A stretch of 24,639 bases of DNA from a virus. Each line of letters opens with the position of its first letter. Position 1 is the stretch's first letter. A program made the position numbers and the translations under genes. The notes under the pieces were generated by a model. The model was not told where the DNA came from, ran no database searches, and saw only the letters and a program-made list of their open reading frames with translations. The stretch is taken from positions 1 through 24,639 of the IMG/VR virus record IMGVR_UViG_3300011114_001058, one strand, 5' to 3'. Positions 9,574 to 24,423 of the stretch are shown here, in pieces.

Positions 9574-9960
9574 TTATCGGATAAGCTCAATTTCAAGATT
9601 GTCTAATTGAAGTTTTTGCCATACTTTGTCAGCCGTATAAACAGGAAGGCCCATCTTTATGCCTAAAGAGATACATGCGCGGTCACCTAAAGATAAGCCA
9701 TGCTTTTTCGTGTGTTTTCTAAGTTCAGCCGTTTTGAAAGCTTGTTCCTCATCAAAAGGCACAATATCAGAAATAAGAGGCAATAGGCACTCTTGCACTT
9801 CCTGGGCCGTCATTTCTGATTCCAACAAAATACTGGCTGTTTCAGAAACATTGATGCTAGACATGACAATTTGCCCCAACAAGGGCTCAACTTTATCAGC
9901 GCCAGGCTCATTTTTGAGAAGGGCAAGCAGCGCAGATGCATCAAGAATAAATTTACTCAT
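9574..9960 (-). CDS. vapC: VapC-type PIN-domain toxin ribonuclease
   Basis: A 128-residue PIN-domain protein; VapC toxins are metal-dependent ribonucleases that cut tRNA or rRNA and stop growth when unopposed. The acidic active-site residues expected of the family are visible: D7 in FILDASALL, E40 in SINVSE, D93 in LSLGDRAC and D111 in VYTAD. Length is normal, so it is probably intact. Its ATG overlaps the end of the antitoxin gene by 8 bases, the usual antitoxin-first order with coupled translation. It lies on the minus strand within a plus-strand structural operon and is visibly richer in G+C (40-47% in lines I counted) than the fibre genes (about 28% in one line), which points to separate acquisition. 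Its target is unknown. Confidence 0.88.
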   Translation of the reverse strand: MSKFILDASALLALLKNEPGADKVEPLLGQIVMSSINVSETASILLESEMTAQEVQECLLPLISDIVPFDEEQAFKTAELRKHTKKHGLSLGDRACISLGIKMGLPVYTADKVWQKLQLDNLEIELIR

Positions 9961-10198
9961 GTTTGGCCTCTTCTTTGCGTTCAGCTAGCAATTTATCAAC
10001 TAGGCTTTCATTAGCAGAATGGTACTGATTGACTAGTTGTCGTGACTTTTCTAAAAGACATCTCAAAGAAGAAATGACAAGCGTGTCATTTTTCATATCT
10101 AAGACAACTTCTTCGCCATCCTTGAATTGAAGCATTTTACGATAAATTGAAGGTATAGAAATTTTTCCACCTTTTGATATTTTTGCTCTCAATAACAT
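9953..10198 (-). CDS. vapB: AbrB/MazE-fold antitoxin (VapB partner)
   Basis: An 81-residue antitoxin with an N-terminal swapped-hairpin DNA-binding domain: AKISKGGKISIPSIYRKML, then FKDGEEVVLDMKNDTLVIS. A charged helical C-terminal half (~45-81) should wrap and block the toxin. I chose the ATG at 10198 rather than upstream in-frame starts because an AAAGGA ribosome site lies about 10 bases before it, the family domain begins there, and a longer start would read through the promoter. Such antitoxins bind their own promoter, alone or with the toxin; a matching inverted repeat lies just upstream. Confidence 0.85.
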   Translation of the reverse strand: MLLRAKISKGGKISIPSIYRKMLQFKDGEEVVLDMKNDTLVISSLRCLLEKSRQLVNQYHSANESLVDKLLAERKEEAKHE

Positions 10199-10215
10199 TA
10201 GATATCGTCCTTTTT

Positions 10216-10243
10216 TGACAATTGTTACCATTGTCATTATAGC
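10216..10243 (-). promoter_or_regulatory. vapBC promoter with overlapping operator
   Basis: On the minus strand an extended -10 box (TGCTATAAT, hexamer at 10241-10236) runs directly into a perfect inverted repeat. Its 7-base arms are TGACAAT/ATTGTCA at 10216-10222 and 10230-10236, with a 7-base spacer. Transcription would start inside this repeat, so an AbrB-fold antitoxin bound there should block initiation. No good -35 box is visible, as is common with extended -10 promoters. Confidence 0.65.
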
Positions 10244-10321
10244 ATCAAAATGATTAATAGTAAGTAAATATCTTTTAATCACCATTTTAGGAAAAAGCTC
10301 TCGTAATCTTAAAAAGATCCA

Positions 10322-11212: not shown

Positions 11213-13165
11213 ATGACTATTCAATCAATAAGTTATGGTGCTGTGCAAACGGCGTATGTAAGTTACACAAGTTATGATTTAGATGTAGCAAATTCTATTT
11301 CAACTTTTGTATGGCCAACACCATATGCAACGTCTCTAAATGTTTTAGCTGCTACAACCAATTTTGTTGTTACAAAAACTGGATGTAAAGTTAATTTTCC
11401 AAATGCTAATGAAGTTAGCTTAGGCATGAATATTTTTATTCGTAATGATGGTTCATCAAGTGATATAGTTACGATTAATGATAATCTCGGTAATCCGATA
11501 GAAGTTATAGATCCAGGTGAAGTTTGGTGGATTCAATTAACGGCTTATACAAACGACTCGGCAGGTGTTTGGATTCCTATACAACAAGGAGCTGGAACAT
11601 CTCAAGCTACTGCTGCAGATTTAGCAGGAAAAGGCTTAGAGGCAGTTGCTACAAGACTTAATACAGTTATTCCTCCCAAAACAATTACAGCAGATTACAC
11701 AATTGTAGACGCTGATCAATCAGGGTTAATTTTAATTAATAGCACTGGGTTAGTAACAATCACTCTTGGTGCATATCGTGGTGGATTTAGTGTTTCATTT
11801 AACAATATAGGAACTGGTGATGTTTTCTTCACCGGAATTGTTAATAATTCTGCAACTTTTTCTTTAGGAAGTTCTCAAACGGTTACATTAATTAATGATG
11901 CAATAGATACTAATAAATGGTGGACATTAGGATTAGGGCAAGGAACATCTTTTCTCGATAGCATTGTATCAGTTGATTTGACGGATATAGCTTCCACAGG
12001 AGGGACTTTAGTTCTTAGCGCCAGTCAACTTAATGCATTTATCCAACAATTTTACTCTGATGATCCAATTACAGGAAACATTGTTATTTATTATGGCAAT
12101 AATTCAGGAAATTGGTATGTAGCAAATTTTTGTAGCACTACAAATGGTTCATCAATTTCATTAAGTTTAGGGTTTCCGGTTACCCCTGTAGGTACCCCAA
12201 TAGTAGTCCCAATGGGTGCAAAATTAATTTATTATGCAGCTAATGATCCAACGACAAATCAGTTATCTTTGTTTACTATTCCATCTATCTTATCTTTACA
12301 AAAATTACTTCTTGCAAATGGAACAGCAGCTGCACCTTCTCTTTCATTTTCGTCTAATGAAACATCGGGTTTTTATTTAGAAAATGCTTTTCAGCCATCT
12401 ATTTCAGCAAATGCAGTTCAAGTTGCCACTTTTGATGGAACAACTGACATTAATCCAAAAATATTAGCTAATTCAGGTTCATCAGATTATCCCGTTTATA
12501 CTTTTGATACGGGAACTGATTTTGGTATGGGATTGGTCAATCCAGGAAAATTAGGTTTTTTTGGTGGAAATGCTGCAGTATGTAATACTTTAGTTACGTC
12601 TGGTGGTGTAACTAATTCTACATTTATAGAACCAACAAGTGGAAATACCTTAGCTTTAAACATAGATAATGCAGAGGCTGTATTAGATTTTACTGTTGGT
12701 GGATTAACCGGTTCAATATCAACTTCAGCTACAAATTTAACTTTGTCATATTTTGATGGTACAACTACTGGAAATTTAAAACTATCGGTTCCAAGCGTTA
12801 CATCGACAGCTTTAACGCTTTCATCACCTGCAGCAAACAATTTATTAATAACTGTTAATGATGCAACTCCAGCAACAGTTTCTTATGATGGAAATTTAGC
12901 AGTTTCTATTGCAACTACTGGTGCAATGACATTTGCGCAAACTGCAAATTTCACTCAACGAACTGCTACTTTAAATGCCTTATTGCCGAACCCTGCTGCA
13001 CTTGGAAACATGCTTGCATATGATGGTGCTAATTGGATTTTAACTCCCGCAGCTGCAGCAGGAACCATTCTTTACTTTAATGGTGCTAATTGGATAAATC
13101 TTGCTCCTGGTGCTGATGGGAGTGTTTTAACGCTAGCAGGAGGATTACCAACATGGGCTCCTTAG
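11213..13165 (+). CDS. Large tail fibre / tail appendage protein
   Basis: A 650-residue fibre protein with an AAGGA ribosome site. The N-terminal ~130 residues form a beta domain (TNFVVTKTGCKV, NIFIRNDGSSSDIV, DPGEVWWIQL) probably used for attachment. Residues ~155-240 repeat a similar theme (KTITADYTIVDADQSG, LILINSTGLVTITL). Residues ~365-380 contain GTAAAPSLSFSSNETSGFYL, a widespread phage fibre motif. The C-terminal ~55 residues carry two copies of the fibre strand GNMLAYDGANWIL / GTILYFNGANWINL and end GSVLTLAGGLPTW. There is no intramolecular chaperone or catalytic motif that I can see. The last 13 bases overlap the muramidase gene, whose AGGAGG ribosome site lies inside this coding region. 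Confidence 0.68.
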   Translation: MTIQSISYGAVQTAYVSYTSYDLDVANSISTFVWPTPYATSLNVLAATTNFVVTKTGCKVNFPNANEVSLGMNIFIRNDGSSSDIVTINDNLGNPIEVIDPGEVWWIQLTAYTNDSAGVWIPIQQGAGTSQATAADLAGKGLEAVATRLNTVIPPKTITADYTIVDADQSGLILINSTGLVTITLGAYRGGFSVSFNNIGTGDVFFTGIVNNSATFSLGSSQTVTLINDAIDTNKWWTLGLGQGTSFLDSIVSVDLTDIASTGGTLVLSASQLNAFIQQFYSDDPITGNIVIYYGNNSGNWYVANFCSTTNGSSISLSLGFPVTPVGTPIVVPMGAKLIYYAANDPTTNQLSLFTIPSILSLQKLLLANGTAAAPSLSFSSNETSGFYLENAFQPSISANAVQVATFDGTTDINPKILANSGSSDYPVYTFDTGTDFGMGLVNPGKLGFFGGNAAVCNTLVTSGGVTNSTFIEPTSGNTLALNIDNAEAVLDFTVGGLTGSISTSATNLTLSYFDGTTTGNLKLSVPSVTSTALTLSSPAANNLLITVNDATPATVSYDGNLAVSIATTGAMTFAQTANFTQRTATLNALLPNPAALGNMLAYDGANWILTPAAAAGTILYFNGANWINLAPGADGSVLTLAGGLPTWAP

Positions 13166-13656
13166 ATAATATTTTTAATCAAGCCATTGAAAATGTTTTA
13201 GAAAATGAAGGGGGTTATGTTAATGACCCTTATGACCCTGGTGGAGAAACAAATTTTGGTATATCTAAAAGAATTTATCCCCATCTAGATATAAAAAATA
13301 TTACGCGCAATCAAGCAATAGATATTTACAAAAAACAATATTGGGAAAATACAGCATATCCATTAATTTCAACAAAACTACCATTAATTGCTATAAAAAT
13401 TTTCGATTTAAGTGTCAATATGGGAAATGTCCAAGCCAATAGACTTTTGCAACGTGCTTGTAGATCAATTGGATCCCCACTTGTAGAAGATGGATATTTA
13501 GGTCCTAAAAGTTTAAAAGTTATAATGAACAGTAATCAGGATTTACTGTTATGTAGTTTTAAATCAGAAGCAGCGGGCTATTACCGTGTTCTTTGCGCCT
13601 TAAAATCTTCTAACAATGAATTTTTAAATGGGTGGTTAAGTAGGGCATATGAATAA
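13153..13656 (+). CDS. GH108-type N-acetylmuramidase (phage lysozyme)
   Basis: A 167-residue peptidoglycan hydrolase. Residues 14-37 contain ENEGGYVNDPYDPGGETNFG, the active-site signature of GH108-type muramidases; E19 is the expected catalytic acid. Residues ~105-140 (LLQRACRSIG, VEDGYLGPKSLKVI) match the C-terminal peptidoglycan-binding domain of this family. There is no signal peptide or membrane segment. The start is fixed by a perfect AGGAGG at 13138-13143, nine bases upstream. It is wedged between a fibre and the gp10-like gene with overlaps on both sides (13 and 8 bases) and no holin beside it. It could therefore be a virion-associated lysin that opens the wall at entry as well as, or instead of, an endolysin. 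Enzyme call strong; timing of use inferred. Confidence 0.88.
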   Translation: MGSLDNIFNQAIENVLENEGGYVNDPYDPGGETNFGISKRIYPHLDIKNITRNQAIDIYKKQYWENTAYPLISTKLPLIAIKIFDLSVNMGNVQANRLLQRACRSIGSPLVEDGYLGPKSLKVIMNSNQDLLLCSFKSEAAGYYRVLCALKSSNNEFLNGWLSRAYE

Positions 13657-15241
13657 TTACAAATGTCAGGTATTACAAAGCGATCCAGGTATTCAGCGTG
13701 ATGGTACTGGTTATGATTCAACAAATTTTATTGATGGACAATGGACAAGATTTTACAACAACAAACCTAGAAAAATGGGTGGTTACAAAGCTGTTAATTA
13801 TGGGACAAATCAAATTATCCGTAGCATGTATTCTGCTCCTTTAGATAATGACGTTCAAATATATTTAGGACGAAGTGAATCGTTAAGTTATGTATCCCTT
13901 CCCATTAGCGGTAACATAAATATTAACCTTACAAATGAAGTTGATAGAACTCCAACAAGTTTGGATCTTAATCTAGAAAACTCTTGGAGTTTTGATTTAT
14001 TTACTAACTTTACCGATGCATATCTTGAATCTCAAATTATTGCTCAGGTATGTCCTAATGCATCATCAATTAACAATGCTGTAGAAGGTCCTATTTATTA
14101 TGGAAGTATCACTAATAATTTACCTTTAATTCCTATCATAGACAGCGAATTAGGTACGATTCAATGTAGTGGGGGTATTGTTTTTCTTTCCCCTATTTTG
14201 GTTGCTTATGGAAATAATGGAAAAATTCAATGGACAGATCCAAATGCGGCTGATCCTTTAAATACATGGCATGATTCTTCGAATAATCCTTTAGAAAACA
14301 CAATTGCTAACACCAAAATTGTTTATGGAACATCTATCATTGGTGCAAGTGTTCCTACTGGACTATTTTGGTCATTAAATAGTTTGATTCGTGTAACATA
14401 CAGTGCAATAACAACAGCAGAAGTTACAAGTTATGTATTTGCCTCTACAACCATTGATAACAACATAAGCATTATTTCTAATACAAGTGTTGTTAGTTAT
14501 AAACAAACATATTTTTGGATTGGTACTGACCAATTTTATATGTTTGATGGCGTTGTGCAAACTATCCCTAATACCATGAATAGACATTGGTTTTTTAACA
14601 ATGTAAATTTTGAACAGCGTAACAAAATATTCGGATATGTAAATTCACGATACGATGAAATTATTTGGTATTATCCGACTAGAGATAGTACAGAAAATAA
14701 TGCATTCATTGCCTATAATTATGTAGGAAGATTTTGGTTTGATTCATTAAATGGACGTTCAACAGGTGTATCAGCAAATGTGCTTCCTTTTCCTTTATTA
14801 GCTGATTCTCAATCTACAGCTATTACTACACGCAGGGGCGTAGAAAATTATTATCTTCTTTGGCAGCATGAAATAGGAAATGACAAAGATATTTCTGGTA
14901 AATTGACGCCTATTTTAAGCAATTATACGCATCACATTACAGATATTTGCTCTCAACCAGACAGTCAAAATCGTTTAATTCGCAACCGTCGTGTAGAACC
15001 AAACTTTTCAATGATTGGTAATATGGATTTATGGTTTATCAATATGATGTGGGCTGCAGATTATATTAATGGAAACGCTATTATTGATGGTCCTTACCCT
15101 TTTAATTCTTTTACGCAATTTGTAGATATGGCAAGCCAAGGTAGACAAGTAGCTTTGAAATTTCAAAGCAACGAATTGGGTGGTTTTTTTCAAGGTGGAA
15201 AAACCTTATTTGATTGGGAAGTTGGCGATGTGCAACCTTAA
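13649..15241 (+). CDS. P22 gp10-like packaged-DNA stabilisation / tail hub protein
   Basis: A 530-residue protein of the group that plugs the tail stub and keeps packaged DNA inside the head. The N-terminus has the typical run SDPGIQRDGTGYDSTNFIDG followed by WTRFYNNKPRKMGGY. The middle shows repeated beta blades with aromatic ends (KQTYFWIGTDQFYMFDG, RYDEIIWYYPTRDS, RFWFDSLNGRS), fitting a propeller-like fold. The C-terminus has the repeated RQVALKFQSNELGGFF and TLFDWEVGDVQP ending seen in relatives. Its start overlaps the muramidase by 8 bases and no strong ribosome site is visible, so translation is probably coupled. Presence of this protein together with gp4-type connectors is the main reason for calling a podovirus. 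Confidence 0.72.
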   Translation: MNNYKCQVLQSDPGIQRDGTGYDSTNFIDGQWTRFYNNKPRKMGGYKAVNYGTNQIIRSMYSAPLDNDVQIYLGRSESLSYVSLPISGNININLTNEVDRTPTSLDLNLENSWSFDLFTNFTDAYLESQIIAQVCPNASSINNAVEGPIYYGSITNNLPLIPIIDSELGTIQCSGGIVFLSPILVAYGNNGKIQWTDPNAADPLNTWHDSSNNPLENTIANTKIVYGTSIIGASVPTGLFWSLNSLIRVTYSAITTAEVTSYVFASTTIDNNISIISNTSVVSYKQTYFWIGTDQFYMFDGVVQTIPNTMNRHWFFNNVNFEQRNKIFGYVNSRYDEIIWYYPTRDSTENNAFIAYNYVGRFWFDSLNGRSTGVSANVLPFPLLADSQSTAITTRRGVENYYLLWQHEIGNDKDISGKLTPILSNYTHHITDICSQPDSQNRLIRNRRVEPNFSMIGNMDLWFINMMWAADYINGNAIIDGPYPFNSFTQFVDMASQGRQVALKFQSNELGGFFQGGKTLFDWEVGDVQP

Positions 15242-15246
15242 TAACT

Positions 15247-15495
15247 ATGCCTAATTTAGCATTGCCAATTAATTTAGATTTTAATGATTGGGCTAACCAT
15301 ATTCGAAATGATTTAAGTATGTACAACATTCCAATTGCCGGAACTAAAAATCAATGGAGACAATGGGCAAATCAAGTTATTAATAGCAATACAATTCCTG
15401 GCATTCCGCTTCCGACTGAACTTGGATATCCAAAAAATGAAGATTGGAGGCAATGGGCAATTCGTTTTTATCAAATTGTTATTGATATTCCATAA
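15247..15495 (+). CDS. Small Trp-rich phage protein with WRQWA repeats
   Basis: An 82-residue protein just after the gp10-like gene. I chose the ATG at 15247 because an upstream in-frame start at 15214 would lie inside the preceding gene. It contains three related short units: FNDWANHIRNDL, WRQWANQVINS and WRQWAIRFYQ. I recall similar F-x-x-W-x-x-W-A units in short phage proteins at this place in podovirus-like operons. Function is unknown. A part in the tail stub or at the start of ejection is a guess from position. Confidence 0.65.
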   Translation: MPNLALPINLDFNDWANHIRNDLSMYNIPIAGTKNQWRQWANQVINSNTIPGIPLPTELGYPKNEDWRQWAIRFYQIVIDIP

Positions 15496-15589: not shown

Positions 15590-16762
15590 ATGTACCCTAA
15601 TCTAAATCCAAACCCAATGCAGGGAATGAATTTTCCTACGAGACAACTTGTTAATTCTGCTCCGACACAATCACCATTTCAGGCAAATATGTCGGCACAA
15701 AGTCAACCTAATCCACAACAACCTCAACAAAATTTTAAACGGGGAGGTCGGGTTAAAAATAGTTATGTAGCTGCTCATTTTTCTAAAAAAGAATTAGATG
15801 CATTAGATCATTTACAGGGTGGATCTGAACGTCATAATAAAACGGGGATTCGATCATACAAAGGATTAGAAGCGCTTTTAAAAAATCCTCATTTGCTAAA
15901 ACTTATTCATGAACATAGTGCAAGCCATCATGCAGAAGGTGGTTCTATACAAGGAATGGCACACAATGGACGTCATGGCGATACAGAAATGGCTTTTATT
16001 GGACCTCATACACGTCAATTACTTGATAAATTAGCAGGTCATAAAACACGTAATCCTTATGACGGTCATCCTGAATATTTTTCTTTAGGAAATATGTTAG
16101 GTGGTATTGGCAAAACTATTATGCGTGTTCCAAAAGGGATTATTAAAGGCGTTTCTGGAATTGGAAAAACTTTTGGGAATTTAAGTCCTACGGCACGTGG
16201 AATGTTAGGCACAGCAGCATCTGCTCTTGCATTACCAATAATGGGACCAGCGGCTGCAGCACTTCCTTTTATTGCTAAGGCTGCGCCTGGTTTTTTAAAA
16301 CATATAAAAGGTTTTGCTGGAAAAGCAAAAAGTTCTGTAAATGATTTGAAAAATCAGGCTAATAGCATGTTGGGACAAGCACAAAATGAAGCTCAAAATA
16401 TGTATGGCCGTGCACAAGAGTATGGACAAAATATGTACGGAAAAGCTCAAGACAAAGCTCAGGGTATGTATGATCAAGCACAAAATGAAGCTCAAAATAT
16501 GTATGGCCGTGCACAAGAGTATGGACAAAATATGTATAACCAAGGTCAACAAGCTTATGGAAATGCACGTAAACAAGCAAAAGGATACGGCCAAGATATA
16601 TACAATCAAGCTCAAGGAATGGGTAATCAGTATGCACACCAAGGGCGTCAAATGTATAACCAAGGACGTGATCAAATGAATCAAATGGGTCAACAAGCAA
16701 AGGAAATGTATAACCAATATCAACAACAACCTTCTTACCAACCTTATTCTTACTATCAATAA
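15590..16762 (+). CDS. Candidate internal/ejection protein with 11-residue amphipathic repeat tail
   Basis: A 390-residue protein, first of four large genes that probably encode internal virion proteins. Residues 1-50 are Pro/Gln-rich. Two related motifs follow at ~58-93 (HFSKKELDALDHLQGG ... TGIRSYKGL) and ~130-166 (GDTEMAFIGPHTRQLLDKLAG ... YFSLGNML). A hydrophobic Ala/Gly/Pro stretch at ~203-236 could enter a membrane. Residues ~264-390 form a run of 11-residue units of the kind AQNEAQNMYGR / AQEYGQNMYGK, likely long amphipathic helices like those in LEA proteins, but rich in Gln, Asn and Tyr. The ribosome site is GGAG eight bases before the ATG. A role in forming a conduit or coating DNA during ejection is inferred. 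Confidence 0.6.
   Translation: MYPNLNPNPMQGMNFPTRQLVNSAPTQSPFQANMSAQSQPNPQQPQQNFKRGGRVKNSYVAAHFSKKELDALDHLQGGSERHNKTGIRSYKGLEALLKNPHLLKLIHEHSASHHAEGGSIQGMAHNGRHGDTEMAFIGPHTRQLLDKLAGHKTRNPYDGHPEYFSLGNMLGGIGKTIMRVPKGIIKGVSGIGKTFGNLSPTARGMLGTAASALALPIMGPAAAALPFIAKAAPGFLKHIKGFAGKAKSSVNDLKNQANSMLGQAQNEAQNMYGRAQEYGQNMYGKAQDKAQGMYDQAQNEAQNMYGRAQEYGQNMYNQGQQAYGNARKQAKGYGQDIYNQAQGMGNQYAHQGRQMYNQGRDQMNQMGQQAKEMYNQYQQQPSYQPYSYYQ
16376..16536 (+). repeat. 62-bp perfect direct repeat with 99-bp period
   Basis: Bases 16376-16437 recur exactly at 16475-16536, 99 bases (33 residues, three 11-mer units) apart. The copies encode QAQNEAQNMYGRAQEYGQNM twice. Perfect identity in a coding repeat suggests a recent duplication and possible length variation by slippage or recombination. 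Confidence 0.9.
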
Positions 16763-16771
16763 GGAGATATT

Positions 16772-18445
16772 ATGGAAGAACAAGCTATTGATAATGGTGT
16801 AGAAAGTCCAACTGAAATCCCAGGTGTTGAGCTTTTATTGTGTCATTTTACCAAAGGAGAACTTGAAGGTTTAGATAATCTTCAAGGTGGTCCTTCTATT
16901 GATGATGATACAGGATTAAGAGAGTATTCTAAACTTTCTATCGTTATTGAAGATCCTAAAATTCAAGAAATTTTTAGGCACGTCCAAGAAGAATTGGGTG
17001 ATGATGGAAAAGTTTCTCCAGATCTTCACAATATTTATAAAACTGCTAAAGACAATTCTTTGCCATTTAGAGAAGCACCTCAAGAAAAAGAACCTCCTGC
17101 AAAAACGCTTGCGAATATGGGAGAAGGTGGAGATACCGAATTAGCACTTATTCCCAAAAATCTTGCTGAATTTTTAATTGATCTTAATGGGGGATATTCC
17201 ATTAATGATAAAACTGGATTATTAGAATTTGGTCTTTTTAAAAATATAGTAAAAATTGTTAAAAGGGTTATTCATAATCCTGTAAAAGCTGTAATTCACG
17301 GTGTAAAAAAAGCATTTGGCCCAGAAGGCGTAAGAATTGCTGGAACAATTGGAGGAGCAATAATTGGAGGTCCATTAGGTGCAGGACTAGGTGCTGGGTT
17401 AGGAAACATGGTAACAGGAGCGGGTATAAATAAATCTTTATCTCGTGGACTTGGAGTAGGTGCTGCAGCTTATGGTGTTCAGGGATTAGGACAAGCTATG
17501 GGCGTTAGTGCTTCTGCACCATACACAGGTGGATTTTTTGGTGGAGAAAATGCTTTGGGATCATTATTAGGTGGATCAGGTACTATTGGAGCTAATATGG
17601 CTCCGGCATACGGAACAAACGGACAATTGATTGCAGCTAAAGGCGCTGCTTTACCAGCAGTTAGTAATGCTACGGCAAGTGCTGGAACCGGTAGTGGAAT
17701 TTTTGGATCATTAGGAAAAGCTGCATCTTCTTTGGCATCTAATCCAGCTGCGTTAATGCTTGGTATGACAGGTCTGAATATGTTGGCAGAAAAACAACGT
17801 ATAAAAGAACATAACAAGTTAGTACAAGCACAAAAAGAAGAAAATGAACGAGTGCGTCATGATCTTGGTTTTGATCTTCCCGATATTAAAATGGGAAGAC
17901 GTAATCGTTTATTAAAAAATCCCGCCTATGATCTAGAAAACAATGAAAATTATTATTTAGATGAACCAGAATATTATAAAAAGGGTGGATTGGTTAAACA
18001 CAAAGATTTAGGTTCATTTACTAAAAGTACAGGTATTTATGGTCCTGGTAATGGTCAAGATGACAAAATCAAAACCAAAATTCCGTCTGGTTCTTATATC
18101 ATTGATGCTAGCACAACAGCAAATTTAGGAGATGGGTCTTCTTCTTCTGGAATCAAAGTTTTAGAAGAAGTAGCAAAACATATTAAAAAATCTAAACCAA
18201 TTCATGTAGTAAAGCATGTAGAAAAATTCATTAAAGGTGATTCAAAAAATACACCTGTATATTTAGCAAATGAAGAATTTAAGTTTGATCCAATAACTGT
18301 AGCTTTAGCGGGTGGTGGAAGCATCGACAAAGGTGCAAAAGTTTTTGAGAATATGGTCAAACAAGTGCGTTCTCATAAAAATAGTAATGGATTAGGTTTG
18401 CCTCCAAAAGCAAAACATCCTTTAGAATACATGAACATAGCATAA
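16772..18445 (+). CDS. Candidate internal/ejection protein with glycine-zipper segment, paralogue of preceding N-terminus
   Basis: A 557-residue protein with an AAGGAG ribosome site. Residues ~20-54 (HFTKGELEGLDNLQGG ... DTGLREYSKL) and ~120-155 (GDTELALIPKNLAEFLIDLNG ... TGLLEFGLF) match the two N-terminal motifs of the preceding protein. The D-T-x-L-A-x-I ... TGL-x-EF motif is familiar from internal proteins of other podovirus-like phages. Residues ~188-265 are Gly/Ala-rich with a G-x-x-x-G pattern (GTIGGAIIGGPLGAGLGAGL), suited to membrane insertion. Residues ~411-557 hold a known phage C-terminal block: GPGNGQDDKIKTKIPSGSY, then a TTANLGDGSS stretch, then a PPKAKHPLEYM end. Expected to be packaged and ejected with the DNA; the membrane role is inferred. 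Confidence 0.65.
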   Translation: MEEQAIDNGVESPTEIPGVELLLCHFTKGELEGLDNLQGGPSIDDDTGLREYSKLSIVIEDPKIQEIFRHVQEELGDDGKVSPDLHNIYKTAKDNSLPFREAPQEKEPPAKTLANMGEGGDTELALIPKNLAEFLIDLNGGYSINDKTGLLEFGLFKNIVKIVKRVIHNPVKAVIHGVKKAFGPEGVRIAGTIGGAIIGGPLGAGLGAGLGNMVTGAGINKSLSRGLGVGAAAYGVQGLGQAMGVSASAPYTGGFFGGENALGSLLGGSGTIGANMAPAYGTNGQLIAAKGAALPAVSNATASAGTGSGIFGSLGKAASSLASNPAALMLGMTGLNMLAEKQRIKEHNKLVQAQKEENERVRHDLGFDLPDIKMGRRNRLLKNPAYDLENNENYYLDEPEYYKKGGLVKHKDLGSFTKSTGIYGPGNGQDDKIKTKIPSGSYIIDASTTANLGDGSSSSGIKVLEEVAKHIKKSKPIHVVKHVEKFIKGDSKNTPVYLANEEFKFDPITVALAGGGSIDKGAKVFENMVKQVRSHKNSNGLGLPPKAKHPLEYMNIA

Positions 18446-18458
18446 AAGGAATTAGGAT

Positions 18459-20990
18459 ATGCCAGGATCTTTACGGGCAACAATTGGTGATGTTGATGCA
18501 ACTGTCCAAGGCAGACCTGGACATATAACAAGATATGAACATGCTATTTTACAGCAATTAGCAGATCTTGCAGCACGAGATTATGAAAGATTACCATCTA
18601 AGATTGCAGCACGTACGCCTATACAAAAATATGTATCTGATGAAGTTATGAAAATGTTGGGAACCCTCAGTCATAATGTTGAGGAAAAGGCACAAGACCA
18701 AAGACGTCAAGCTGCTGAACAAAGACAAATTTATAAAATAATTAAGCAAAATGAAAGATTAGGCGCTCAACAAGAAGCACCAGCACCACAAGTAGCAGCA
18801 GATAGGAACGAAGAACAAAGACAACGTAATTTACAAGTTCAACGACTTGCAGAAAGTAGAATTCCAACTTCTGGTCCGTTAAAAGGTGCCCCTTCTCTAG
18901 ATGAAGTTACGGGCTTAAATTACGCTCAGCGTCGCGCCGAAATACTTAGACTTGAAGGATTATTGGGTACTCCACCATCAGATGTAATGCAACTTAATAT
19001 GGCACAAAGACGTGCTCTAATTATGCGGTATGCAAAACAATACCAAGAAAAATATCTTACAGAACATCCAGAAATTATAGAGGAAGCTGAAAGATCTGTG
19101 CCTGCTATACCTATAGCACCACACATAATGGATGTTGGCATAAATGAAGCAGAAAAATTTCCAGATATTGAGCCAGGTTTTGAAACATTGAGACATGAAT
19201 CTTTTGACCCAATGGTTGATGAAGCTTTACGAGATAATTTTAGTCTTGGGGAACAAGAAATTAAAGCAAGTTTTTCTTCAAAGAATAAACATTTACGCGA
19301 TATGATTTTAGCAAAAACACTAGACGTAGGCGAATCTCCTTTAAGAGATGCTCACGAAATAGGAAGCTTTTTATCTGATAAATATCGTGGAATGAGCCGT
19401 TCTGTTCTTGATGAAATGACAGAAAATTATCTTAGTAATATTTTACCAAAAGCCAATTTAGGATATATGGGCGGATCTTGGAATAGTCCACAAAGACGTA
19501 CTCATAATGAAAAAGTGCTTAGTAATCTTCATAAAGATGTTTCACGTAACCTTATTAATTTGGAAGCTAAAACAGCCGAAAAAGGATTAGAAGAAGCAGG
19601 ACAGCAACGAACACGTCAATTGTTTGCAGCTAAAGGTGCTGCTGAAATGTTAAATCAACAACAGCAAGAAGCATCTAGAGGCGCTGAAACATTAGCTAAT
19701 TTAGAAAAAACAAAAATAGGATCTGATTTAGCTAAAATTGAAGCAGCAAGAACTTTAGGCGCAGAAGAACAAAATTTTGAAGGATCAAGATTAGAGGAAA
19801 TGCAAAGAGAAGCATTAAGACAGCAAGAATATCCTTTAGAAATGATTGAAAGACAATTAGGAGCTTCTAGAGGTATTCCAACAGGATCTTATGCAACGCA
19901 TCAACAAATATCTCAACAACCTAATTATGCTGCTATTGGTGCAGGTGGCATTGGAAATATGGCAACAGCTATGATGTATCCACAACAATTACAACAACGA
20001 AAAAGTGGGGGTTTAATTCAAAAATATGCTCCTGGTGGATTTGTTCTTCCTAAGGTTGAAAATGATCCACAAACACAATTAATAGAACAAGAAGCTCAAT
20101 CATTAATGAATGAACCATATAATCCTCAACAAGCTCTTTTACATGGAATAGCTAAAGCTGGTGATAAAATAGCAGAACGTTATACTGGCATGCCAGGAAT
20201 AGCTGGAGATATGGCTGATACACATTTAGCACATCAAGAAGCACATGCGGTAAAACGTGCGCGCGGCCTTAACTTAATCCAACAAGTACAAGCTAGTCGT
20301 GTAAAACAACAGAATTTTTTGGCTGAATTAGAATATAAAAATAAACATCATAGTGAAACACTTGGTGAAACATCACGTCATAATAAGGCGATGGAAAGTT
20401 TACAAGAAAGTCGTGGTGGTTCTGGATCTAATGGACCTGGTGGTGGTTCTATAACAGATCGAAAAGCTGCACGAGAAGCTGTTGCTGCATTAAGAAGATC
20501 TAAATCCATGAAAAGGGAACTTAGCACCCTTAGTGAATTGAGTTCTAAAATTAAAACAGGTCCTGTCAGAGGTTTATTAAATTCTGGTTATCTAAAAGGT
20601 GAAGATGCTAACAAAATGGAAGTGGGCGCCAATAAACTTATATTAGATATGCATCAAGGAATGAAAAACATTCCAAGATCTGAAGAGTTTATGAAAAGAA
20701 TTGAATCAACAAAACCTAATGTTAATAATTATCCTGAAGCTAATAAGATGGCTCTTAAAATGATGGCTGAAGGCGTAGATGATATTGAACAAAATAGCAT
20801 TGATACTTTATTAGCTGCTGGTTACACCATGGAAGATATTCAGAACATACGGCAAGATCATGAAGAATCTCCTGAAACAGAAATATCTGATGGAATGGTT
20901 AGTGTTATTTCTCCCGAAGGGATTCCTGGAAAATTACCAGCACATAATCTTGAAAAAGCATTAGCAAGAGGATACAAACGTGCCGCATGA
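18459..20990 (+). CDS. Large candidate internal virion protein, coiled-coil rich
   Basis: An 843-residue, mostly helical protein with an AAGGA ribosome site and no signal peptide. Residues ~70-145 are Gln/Arg/Glu-rich helix. Residues ~153-190 hold a doubled unit (LNYAQRRAEILRLE / LNMAQRRALIMRYA). Residues ~370-480 look like a long coiled coil (Ala, Glu, Gln, Leu). At ~515-530 comes a KSGGLIQKYAPGGF stretch, a type of Gly-rich turn also seen in the preceding two proteins (KRGGRV, KKGGLV). A Gly/Ser linker lies at ~650-662. I do not recognise a catalytic domain. Length, helicity and position between ejection-type genes suggest an ejectosome component. The end overlaps the next gene by 11 bases. 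Confidence 0.55.
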   Translation: MPGSLRATIGDVDATVQGRPGHITRYEHAILQQLADLAARDYERLPSKIAARTPIQKYVSDEVMKMLGTLSHNVEEKAQDQRRQAAEQRQIYKIIKQNERLGAQQEAPAPQVAADRNEEQRQRNLQVQRLAESRIPTSGPLKGAPSLDEVTGLNYAQRRAEILRLEGLLGTPPSDVMQLNMAQRRALIMRYAKQYQEKYLTEHPEIIEEAERSVPAIPIAPHIMDVGINEAEKFPDIEPGFETLRHESFDPMVDEALRDNFSLGEQEIKASFSSKNKHLRDMILAKTLDVGESPLRDAHEIGSFLSDKYRGMSRSVLDEMTENYLSNILPKANLGYMGGSWNSPQRRTHNEKVLSNLHKDVSRNLINLEAKTAEKGLEEAGQQRTRQLFAAKGAAEMLNQQQQEASRGAETLANLEKTKIGSDLAKIEAARTLGAEEQNFEGSRLEEMQREALRQQEYPLEMIERQLGASRGIPTGSYATHQQISQQPNYAAIGAGGIGNMATAMMYPQQLQQRKSGGLIQKYAPGGFVLPKVENDPQTQLIEQEAQSLMNEPYNPQQALLHGIAKAGDKIAERYTGMPGIAGDMADTHLAHQEAHAVKRARGLNLIQQVQASRVKQQNFLAELEYKNKHHSETLGETSRHNKAMESLQESRGGSGSNGPGGGSITDRKAAREAVAALRRSKSMKRELSTLSELSSKIKTGPVRGLLNSGYLKGEDANKMEVGANKLILDMHQGMKNIPRSEEFMKRIESTKPNVNNYPEANKMALKMMAEGVDDIEQNSIDTLLAAGYTMEDIQNIRQDHEESPETEISDGMVSVISPEGIPGKLPAHNLEKALARGYKRAA

Positions 20991-23787: not shown

Positions 23788-24423
23788 TTATGTATAACTT
23801 TTGAGTGTGTCAAGTGTTTGCTCATTGTTATTCCGTTTAATTATCCCCACAACAGTTCCAGGTGATATTTTAAGGTTTTTAGCAATTTTTCTGATGGTAT
23901 CGCCATTTTCTCTAGCTTTTAATACAAGTTTTTTTACTTTATCAGAAGTAGGACGAAATCCTGTTTTTCTACCAAGGATCATCCCTTTAGATTTAGCTAA
24001 TGCAATACCGGACATAATACGTTCTTGAATTAAATCACGTTCGAATTCTGCAATGGATGCAAAAACAGACGCAATCATTTTTCCATGAGCTGTACATAAA
24101 TCATATTGCATTCCATTTAGAGCAAGTAGCGAGACATTATAAGATTGAAGAAGTTGTAAAGTTGTTACGAGATCAATAGTACTTCTTCCCCATCTACTAA
24201 GTTCGGTTACCAAAATGCTATCTATATATCTTTGTTTTGCTAACTCAATAACTTGTTTACGAATGGCTCGACCATTTTTGGCGCCAGAAGCATTCTCTTT
24301 ATATATACCAATTATTTCGTAACCTAATCTTTCACTAAAAGCGATCAAGTCTTTTTCTTGACGCTCACATGATTGATCTTTGGTTGAAACACGACAGTAA
24401 ATAGCGACCTTTTTTTGTGTCAA
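23788..24423 (-). CDS. Small serine recombinase (resolvase/invertase family)
   Basis: A 211-residue serine recombinase, which cuts and rejoins DNA at paired sites through a Ser-DNA link. The N-terminal catalytic domain has YCRVSTKDQS with nucleophile S13 and R11. Then come LVTELSRWGRSTIDL with the conserved arginines, and IAEFERDLIQERI leading into the long E-helix. The C-terminal ~50 residues form a helix-turn-helix (TIRKIAKNLKISPGTVVGII). Length matches small resolvases/invertases, not the large integrases. The start is TTG, fixed by a perfect AGGAGG five bases upstream. It faces the late operon tail-to-tail. It could resolve multimers of a plasmid-like prophage, invert a segment, or belong to a mobile element. 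No paired crossover sites are proven here. Confidence 0.88.
   Translation of the reverse strand: MTQKKVAIYCRVSTKDQSCERQEKDLIAFSERLGYEIIGIYKENASGAKNGRAIRKQVIELAKQRYIDSILVTELSRWGRSTIDLVTTLQLLQSYNVSLLALNGMQYDLCTAHGKMIASVFASIAEFERDLIQERIMSGIALAKSKGMILGRKTGFRPTSDKVKKLVLKARENGDTIRKIAKNLKISPGTVVGIIKRNNNEQTLDTLKSYT

Follow-up and report, generated by a model that had tools for sequence, protein, structure and literature searches.

We analysed an unannotated virus record of 24,639 nt (IMGVR_UViG_3300011114_001058), called here the window; coordinates are positions within it unless another contig is named. A run of plus-strand genes includes a 390-residue ORF whose C-terminal third is built from 11-residue units (the repeat ORF). 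The features are as follows:

13649..15241, + strand: P22 gp10-like 'stabilization' protein, 530 aa, phrog_3287 (virion structural protein)
15214..15495, + strand: 93-aa ORF, placed after the gp10-like gene and before the repeat ORF; contigs L001, L002, L008 and L009 have it conserved
15590..16762, + strand: repeat ORF, 390 aa, candidate ejection protein (ORF list, homologue comparison)
15770..16090, + strand: N-terminal domain of the repeat ORF, aa 61–167, two tandem β-α-β motifs
16091..16330, + strand: Gly/Ala-rich cationic and hydrophobic stretch, aa 168–247
16376..16540, + strand: five in-register 11-residue units, aa 263–317 (translation, TRF, lag identity)
16541..16717, + strand: looser 11-residue units and one 7-residue unit, aa 318–376 (partly read from the sequence)
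16718..16762, + strand: Q/P/Y-rich C-terminal end and stop codon, non-repeat
16772..18445, + strand: 557-aa paralogue with the same N-terminal domain, a Gly/Ala hydrophobic stretch and a C-terminal motif
18459..20990, + strand: 843-aa protein, positional counterpart of a 790-aa protein in contig L063
20980..23151, + strand: 723-aa protein, final gene of the run, with a weak match to L069

Relatives of the gp10-like protein carry the annotation 'phage stabilization protein', and an SU10-like adaptor is also encoded upstream of the repeat ORF. Homologues of the repeat ORF occur in at least 13 other contigs, mostly directly 3′ of a P22 gp10-like gene. Within the fetched stretches, 12 of the 14 contigs with the full N-terminal domain have that gene upstream in the same orientation (window, L001, L002, L008, L009 and L063–L069); L070 and L077 show none there, though in the L070 contig one sits about 6.6 kb upstream. 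Further along the run, the 557-aa protein matches relatives' proteins annotated as tape measure, and its C-terminal motif matches tape-measure families in relatives. Weak similarity (26.6%, E 4e-6) links the 843-aa protein to the 790-aa protein of L063, which itself matches phrog_4287 'DNA ejection protein' (E 3.4e-5). The last proteins of the run in MW202545 (L015) and in Caulobacter phage GB2A (L016) match phrog_342, 'internal virion protein with endolysin domain' (E 2e-15 and 6e-11).

This arrangement resembles P22 and Sf6, where gp7-gp20-gp16 and gp11-gp12-gp13 form a run downstream of a gp10-type protein. Judged from gene position, which speaks for the locus and not for the protein's presence in the virion, the repeat ORF likely belongs to an ejection-protein locus. 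The preliminary description had called its product a candidate ejection protein; gene place and relatives fit such an operon, although BLAST finds no match to P22 gp7, gp20 or gp16, and the P22 and Sf6 ejection proteins tested lack the N-terminal domain of the repeat ORF.

Several other features of these contigs vary. In L008 (2730–3365, minus strand) and L009 (2729–3364, minus strand), a ParA-like gene, identified by reading, separates the 93-aa ORF from the repeat ORF. The third gene of the run differs in length and sequence blocks between near-identical phages (window 18459–20990, 843 aa; L001 8095–10977, 960 aa; L002 7942–10569, 875 aa). A fibre-like protein with YFNGTxWV-type repeats (window 11213–13165, L001 507–2576, L002 510–2576, L008 2–538) also changes in repeat number, with lengths of 650, 689 and 688 aa. 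The window additionally holds a predicted PIN-toxin/AbrB-like pair (9574–10285, minus strand; by reading) and a serine recombinase (23788–24423, minus strand; Pfam Resolvase), which suggest a temperate or plasmid-like phase.

The N-terminal domain of the repeat ORF is a duplication, with motif 1 reading H(F/M)S..E..LD.LQGG...TG.R.Y and motif 2 GDTE.A.(I/L)P...LD...G...NP.TG..EYF. An AlphaFold2 model from 17 sequences (mean pLDDT 72.9, pTM 0.64) predicts a strand-helix-strand pattern occurring twice. Pfam, PDB and PHROG give no assignment for the domain; a fold search returned no PDB match below E 2.9, and two uncharacterised phage models in BFVD at E≤0.001. The duplicated β-α-β motif is shared by two adjoining genes of the window (15770–16090 and 16838–17239) and occurs in many IMG/VR phages. 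The following Gly/Ala-rich stretch contains a single borderline membrane-like segment (aa 204–235), whose best 19-residue Kyte–Doolittle mean is 1.67 (aa 211).

The 11-residue repeat is real, statistically strong and broader than first noted. TRF on the window DNA finds a 33-nt period at 16376–16544 (5.1 copies). Lag-11 identity over residues 251–390 is 0.38 (z 9.5), equalled in 0 of 1,000 shuffles and also unmatched by the best of 60 lags in each of 1,000 shuffles; lags 22 and 33 come next. The preliminary description had placed the units at residues ~264–390. Translation, TRF and lag identity all bear out their presence, with altered limits: the repeat starts at 263, is regular to 317 (nt 16540) and loose to about 376 (nt 16717), while the last 14 residues are the non-repeat Q/P/Y-rich end, which is longer in L001 and L002. 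A lone 7-residue unit was read at about aa 351–357. Antisense ORFs across the region show the period only as a mirror of the sense repeat. Among 804 mechanically picked ORFs from 107 loci, the window repeat ORF ranks first for lag-11 identity, and the top nine scores all come from its family; since the loci were collected with this operon in mind, the remaining ORFs serve as same-region controls and not as a sample of all phages. Since the window/L001/L002, L008/L009 and L063/L064 sets are near-copies, the nine amount to five lineages.

The period is that of an α-helix. The hydrophobic moment of the repeat peaks at 98.75° per residue, a peak reached by 0 of 1,000 shuffles and close to the 98.2° of 11 residues over three turns. 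Proline, cysteine and tryptophan are absent from the repeat (proline also from those of five of five close homologues), and charged residues make up 16.7% (10 K/R and 9 D/E in 114). On a helical wheel, one face carries Met, Ala/Gly and Tyr in that order; Gln borders this face on either side and Asn, Asp and Glu lie across from it, a pattern in agreement with the amphipathic helix proposed at the outset. The four apolar positions of each unit are spaced 3-1-3-4, as in the core of a hendecad coiled coil. AlphaFold2 predicts helices at 249–330 and 335–378 with very low confidence (pLDDT about 29–49), and the repeat does hold helix-disfavouring residues (Gly 13%, Asn 12%).

Repeat number changes between close relatives. 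In the IMG/VR contigs L001 and L002 the same protein has 465 and 414 residues, versus 390 in the window, and the neighbouring gp10-like and 557-aa proteins are 98–100% identical to their window counterparts. By alignment and reading, the repeats of these near-identical phages differ by 11, 18 (11+7) and 51 (4×11+7) residues, that is 3.02, 4.95 and 14.03 helix turns, all near whole turns, so that helical phase is kept. L001 carries a nearly exact duplication of 51 residues within the repeat, and the L001 and L002 tails also diverge from the window at the extreme C terminus. The homologues in L008 and L009 are 45–46% identical and have longer repeats; YGQ motifs in L008 are spaced 22, 29, 11, 22 and 18 residues apart.

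Pooled comparison of the L008 units (165 codon pairs) gives 87.2 synonymous versus 64.8 non-synonymous differences, with synonymous sites saturated, and the five window units give dS 0.91 and dN 0.28, the pooled unit pairs in these counts being not independent of one another. The N-terminal part, compared between the window and near-identical phages, has 2 synonymous and 8–9 non-synonymous differences, with no signal of constraint or purifying selection. At 1.5 Å per residue the predicted repeat spans are ~186 Å (window), ~203 Å (L002), ~279 Å (L001) and ~260 Å (L008). Near-identical phages thus differ by ~75 Å or more (~93 Å), which argues against an exact ruler of the periplasm.

The duplicated N-terminal domain marks out a wider family. 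A profile built on it matched at least 600 stretches of IMG/VR; among the matches listed, 232 were confirmed and 80 kept. Tails were surveyed in 13 full-domain proteins, omitting L009 and L064 as near-copies of L008 and L063. Lag-11 z is at least 4.5 in seven (window, L001, L002, L008, L063, L067 and the 346-residue L068 protein), and two have 36-residue repeats (L065, z 10.8; L066, z 11.5). A strong repeat is missing from the other four (the 389-residue L068 protein, L069, L070 with lag-11 z 3.0, and L077), which makes the repeat dispensable to the family. A hydrophobic peak at 90.5–100.5° is found in all 13 tails (p≤0.014). Unit composition differs: L068 has Ala/Gly-rich units and L063 Gly/Ser/Ala-rich ones, and those of L067 and the window clade are rich in Q, N and Y. 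Because the domain tree groups the window clade, L067 and L063 (support 0.81–0.88) and places L068 elsewhere, we do not claim independent origins of the 11-residue tail.

In L065 (5917–7335) and L066 (L014; 5908–7125), the 36-residue repeats replace the 11-residue units, for example around FDNPYANAARNGLSTYQNGGNLQNSLMSGAMSGLSG, and each 36-residue unit probably forms two helices. L068 (5926–9860) has three tandem genes (389, 346 and 569 aa) sharing the N-terminal domain, with the 11-residue repeat in the middle one only. In annotated phage records, tblastn gave no match to the complete ORF, to its N-terminal domain by itself or to the L014 relative; the bacterial genomes scanned held no relative, and a repeat-only query matched just the four contigs already known.

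Eleven-residue periods are also a mark of group 3 LEA proteins (PF02987), which share with the repeat an Ala-rich, hydrophilic composition. Their motif is charged and rich in K/E/T. Kinship with LEA or apolipoprotein helices, suggested in the preliminary description, does not hold: Pfam gives no LEA model at E≤1 for five tails, the whole repeat protein finds none at E≤0.1, and a charged fraction of 16.7% is too low for LEA_4. Apolipophorin III and apolipoproteins A1/A4/E have an amphipathic 11-residue-type helix pattern, and there is a weak profile match; unlike them, the repeat has low charge, a small-residue face and no proline breaks. The models of these families score far under their cut-offs; that for A1/A4/E reaches 9.7 bits, where 90 are required, and does so in L008 only. 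DivIVA was likewise rejected; the L001 tail reaches 29.5 bits against a cut-off of 28, over only the coiled-coil part of the model, and was judged a coiled-coil cross-match, while the window tail (27.3 bits) stays under the cut-off.

Nor is the repeat a general property of ejection proteins. The preliminary description knew of no such repeat among them, and we found none in seven (P22 gp7, gp20 and gp16; Sf6 gp11, gp12 and gp13; T7 gp16; maximum z 1.8). Open-access papers gave no account of an 11-residue or hendecad repeat in a phage ejection protein. Ejection proteins of T7, P22, PhiM1 and DEV are described in PMC8954989, PMC11440229 and PMC10925440; 'amphipathic' and 'coiled' are absent from the first two texts and 'amphipathic' from the third. 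A helix that mixes 11- and 7-residue units has nevertheless been described for H, the DNA-pilot protein of phiX174 (PMC7354561).

Residues 151–271 of H form a decameric helical tube of 170 Å from hendecads and heptads, with inward side chains that are Asn, Gln or Arg in 18 of 23 cases (PMC7354561). On pattern alone, and with no detectable homology, H is the closest working analogue of the repeat tail. Both mix 11/3 and 7/2 helix units without proline, over about 120 residues; both are rich in Gln and Asn (35% in the window repeat, 26% in H); and both are phage-encoded, H serving DNA passage. They differ in regularity, with lag-11 z 9.5 in the window repeat versus 2.8 in H, and in hydrophobic moment, weak in H (p 0.048) and far stronger in the window repeat. 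Amides face the lumen in H, whereas on the helical wheel those of the window repeat flank and oppose the hydrophobic seam. The phage of H is a tailless ssDNA phage, unlike that of the window, and H is missing from the six PDB matches at E≤1.

We tentatively favour, at somewhat under even confidence, an ejection-type protein whose helical tail self-associates along a small-residue seam into a conduit rod. Virion location, oligomerisation and a conduit role are what we infer for it. The product would belong to the internal virion proteins of a short-tailed phage. Its N-terminal domain, common to the next gene, would act as a docking or assembly module, and its Gly/Ala-rich hydrophobic stretch could contact membrane. 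The C-terminal third (about 125–190 residues across phages) would be a single long α-helix of 11-residue (three-turn) and 7-residue (two-turn) units, bearing a seam of small residues (A/G) with Met and Tyr at its sides. After ejection, copies of the tail may pack laterally along this seam into a rod or bundle of about 190–280 Å in the periplasm, lining or bracing the DNA path. We propose that tail length varies by whole units because helical phase alone, and not exact length, must be kept. A bolder form, which we regard as improbable, makes the tail a closed α-helical barrel whose Gln/Asn-rich side faces the DNA; a dsDNA phage would then have arrived independently at an equivalent of the phiX174 H tube, lengthened by whole 11- and 7-residue units. 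With small residues central on the wheel and amides flanking, the arrangement suits tight packing of a few helices no less than a wide barrel, and the barrel is the less likely of the two.

A tail that is disordered in the virion and, on exit, coats and loosens a membrane leaflet as a surface amphipathic helix (of the α-synuclein, perilipin or apolipophorin type) would suit the continuous, weakly hydrophobic single face, the adjoining hydrophobic stretch and the faint profile similarities (apolipophorin III, E 0.016; Pfam ApoLp-III, 0.25; Perilipin, 0.78). We nonetheless consider it unlikely: mean hydrophobicity and net charge of the tail are both ~0, the HeliQuest lipid-binding score is passed by only 17% of 18-residue windows (11% in L008), and the Ala/Gly, Met and Tyr face lacks the large aliphatic residues usual in lipid binders. 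Nor do we give much weight to a tape-measure-like role, in which the length of the helix would fix or scaffold a portion of the tail or internal core in place of a function after ejection. Length does vary by whole units, as seen in tape-measure proteins, and several family members or paralogues match such families weakly; the paralogues' PHROG matches, however, sit in a short C-terminal motif outside the repeat, and the gp10-like gene and SU10-like adaptor indicate a short tail, the window being a genome fragment.

Two readings that ask little of the helix are less probable again. The preliminary description had mentioned a disordered filler, packed in the head; as a hydrophilin-like filler shed with the DNA it would agree with the low AlphaFold2 confidence and with values inside the hydrophilin limits (repeat Gly 13.2%, hydrophilicity 1.71), yet the whole protein, at 0.90, misses the hydrophilicity limit, and a filler needs neither phase-keeping repeats nor helical periodicity and so leaves the phase-keeping unexplained. 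We rate it no higher than neutral slippage in a merely tolerated linker, for which the tandem repeats at the DNA level, the near-exact 51-residue duplication in L001 and the lack of a repeat in some family tails could all be cited. Against slippage, the old units of L008 retain their residues despite saturated synonymous sites, and 7-residue insertions preserve helical phase where slippage of DNA in 11-residue units would not yield them.

The way in which short-tailed phages bridge the envelope of their host cell has been worked out in only a few of them. A family whose probable ejection-locus protein bears a long modular helix, naturally variable in length among phages that otherwise hardly differ, would make it possible to test directly whether a conduit has to fit the envelope in length.
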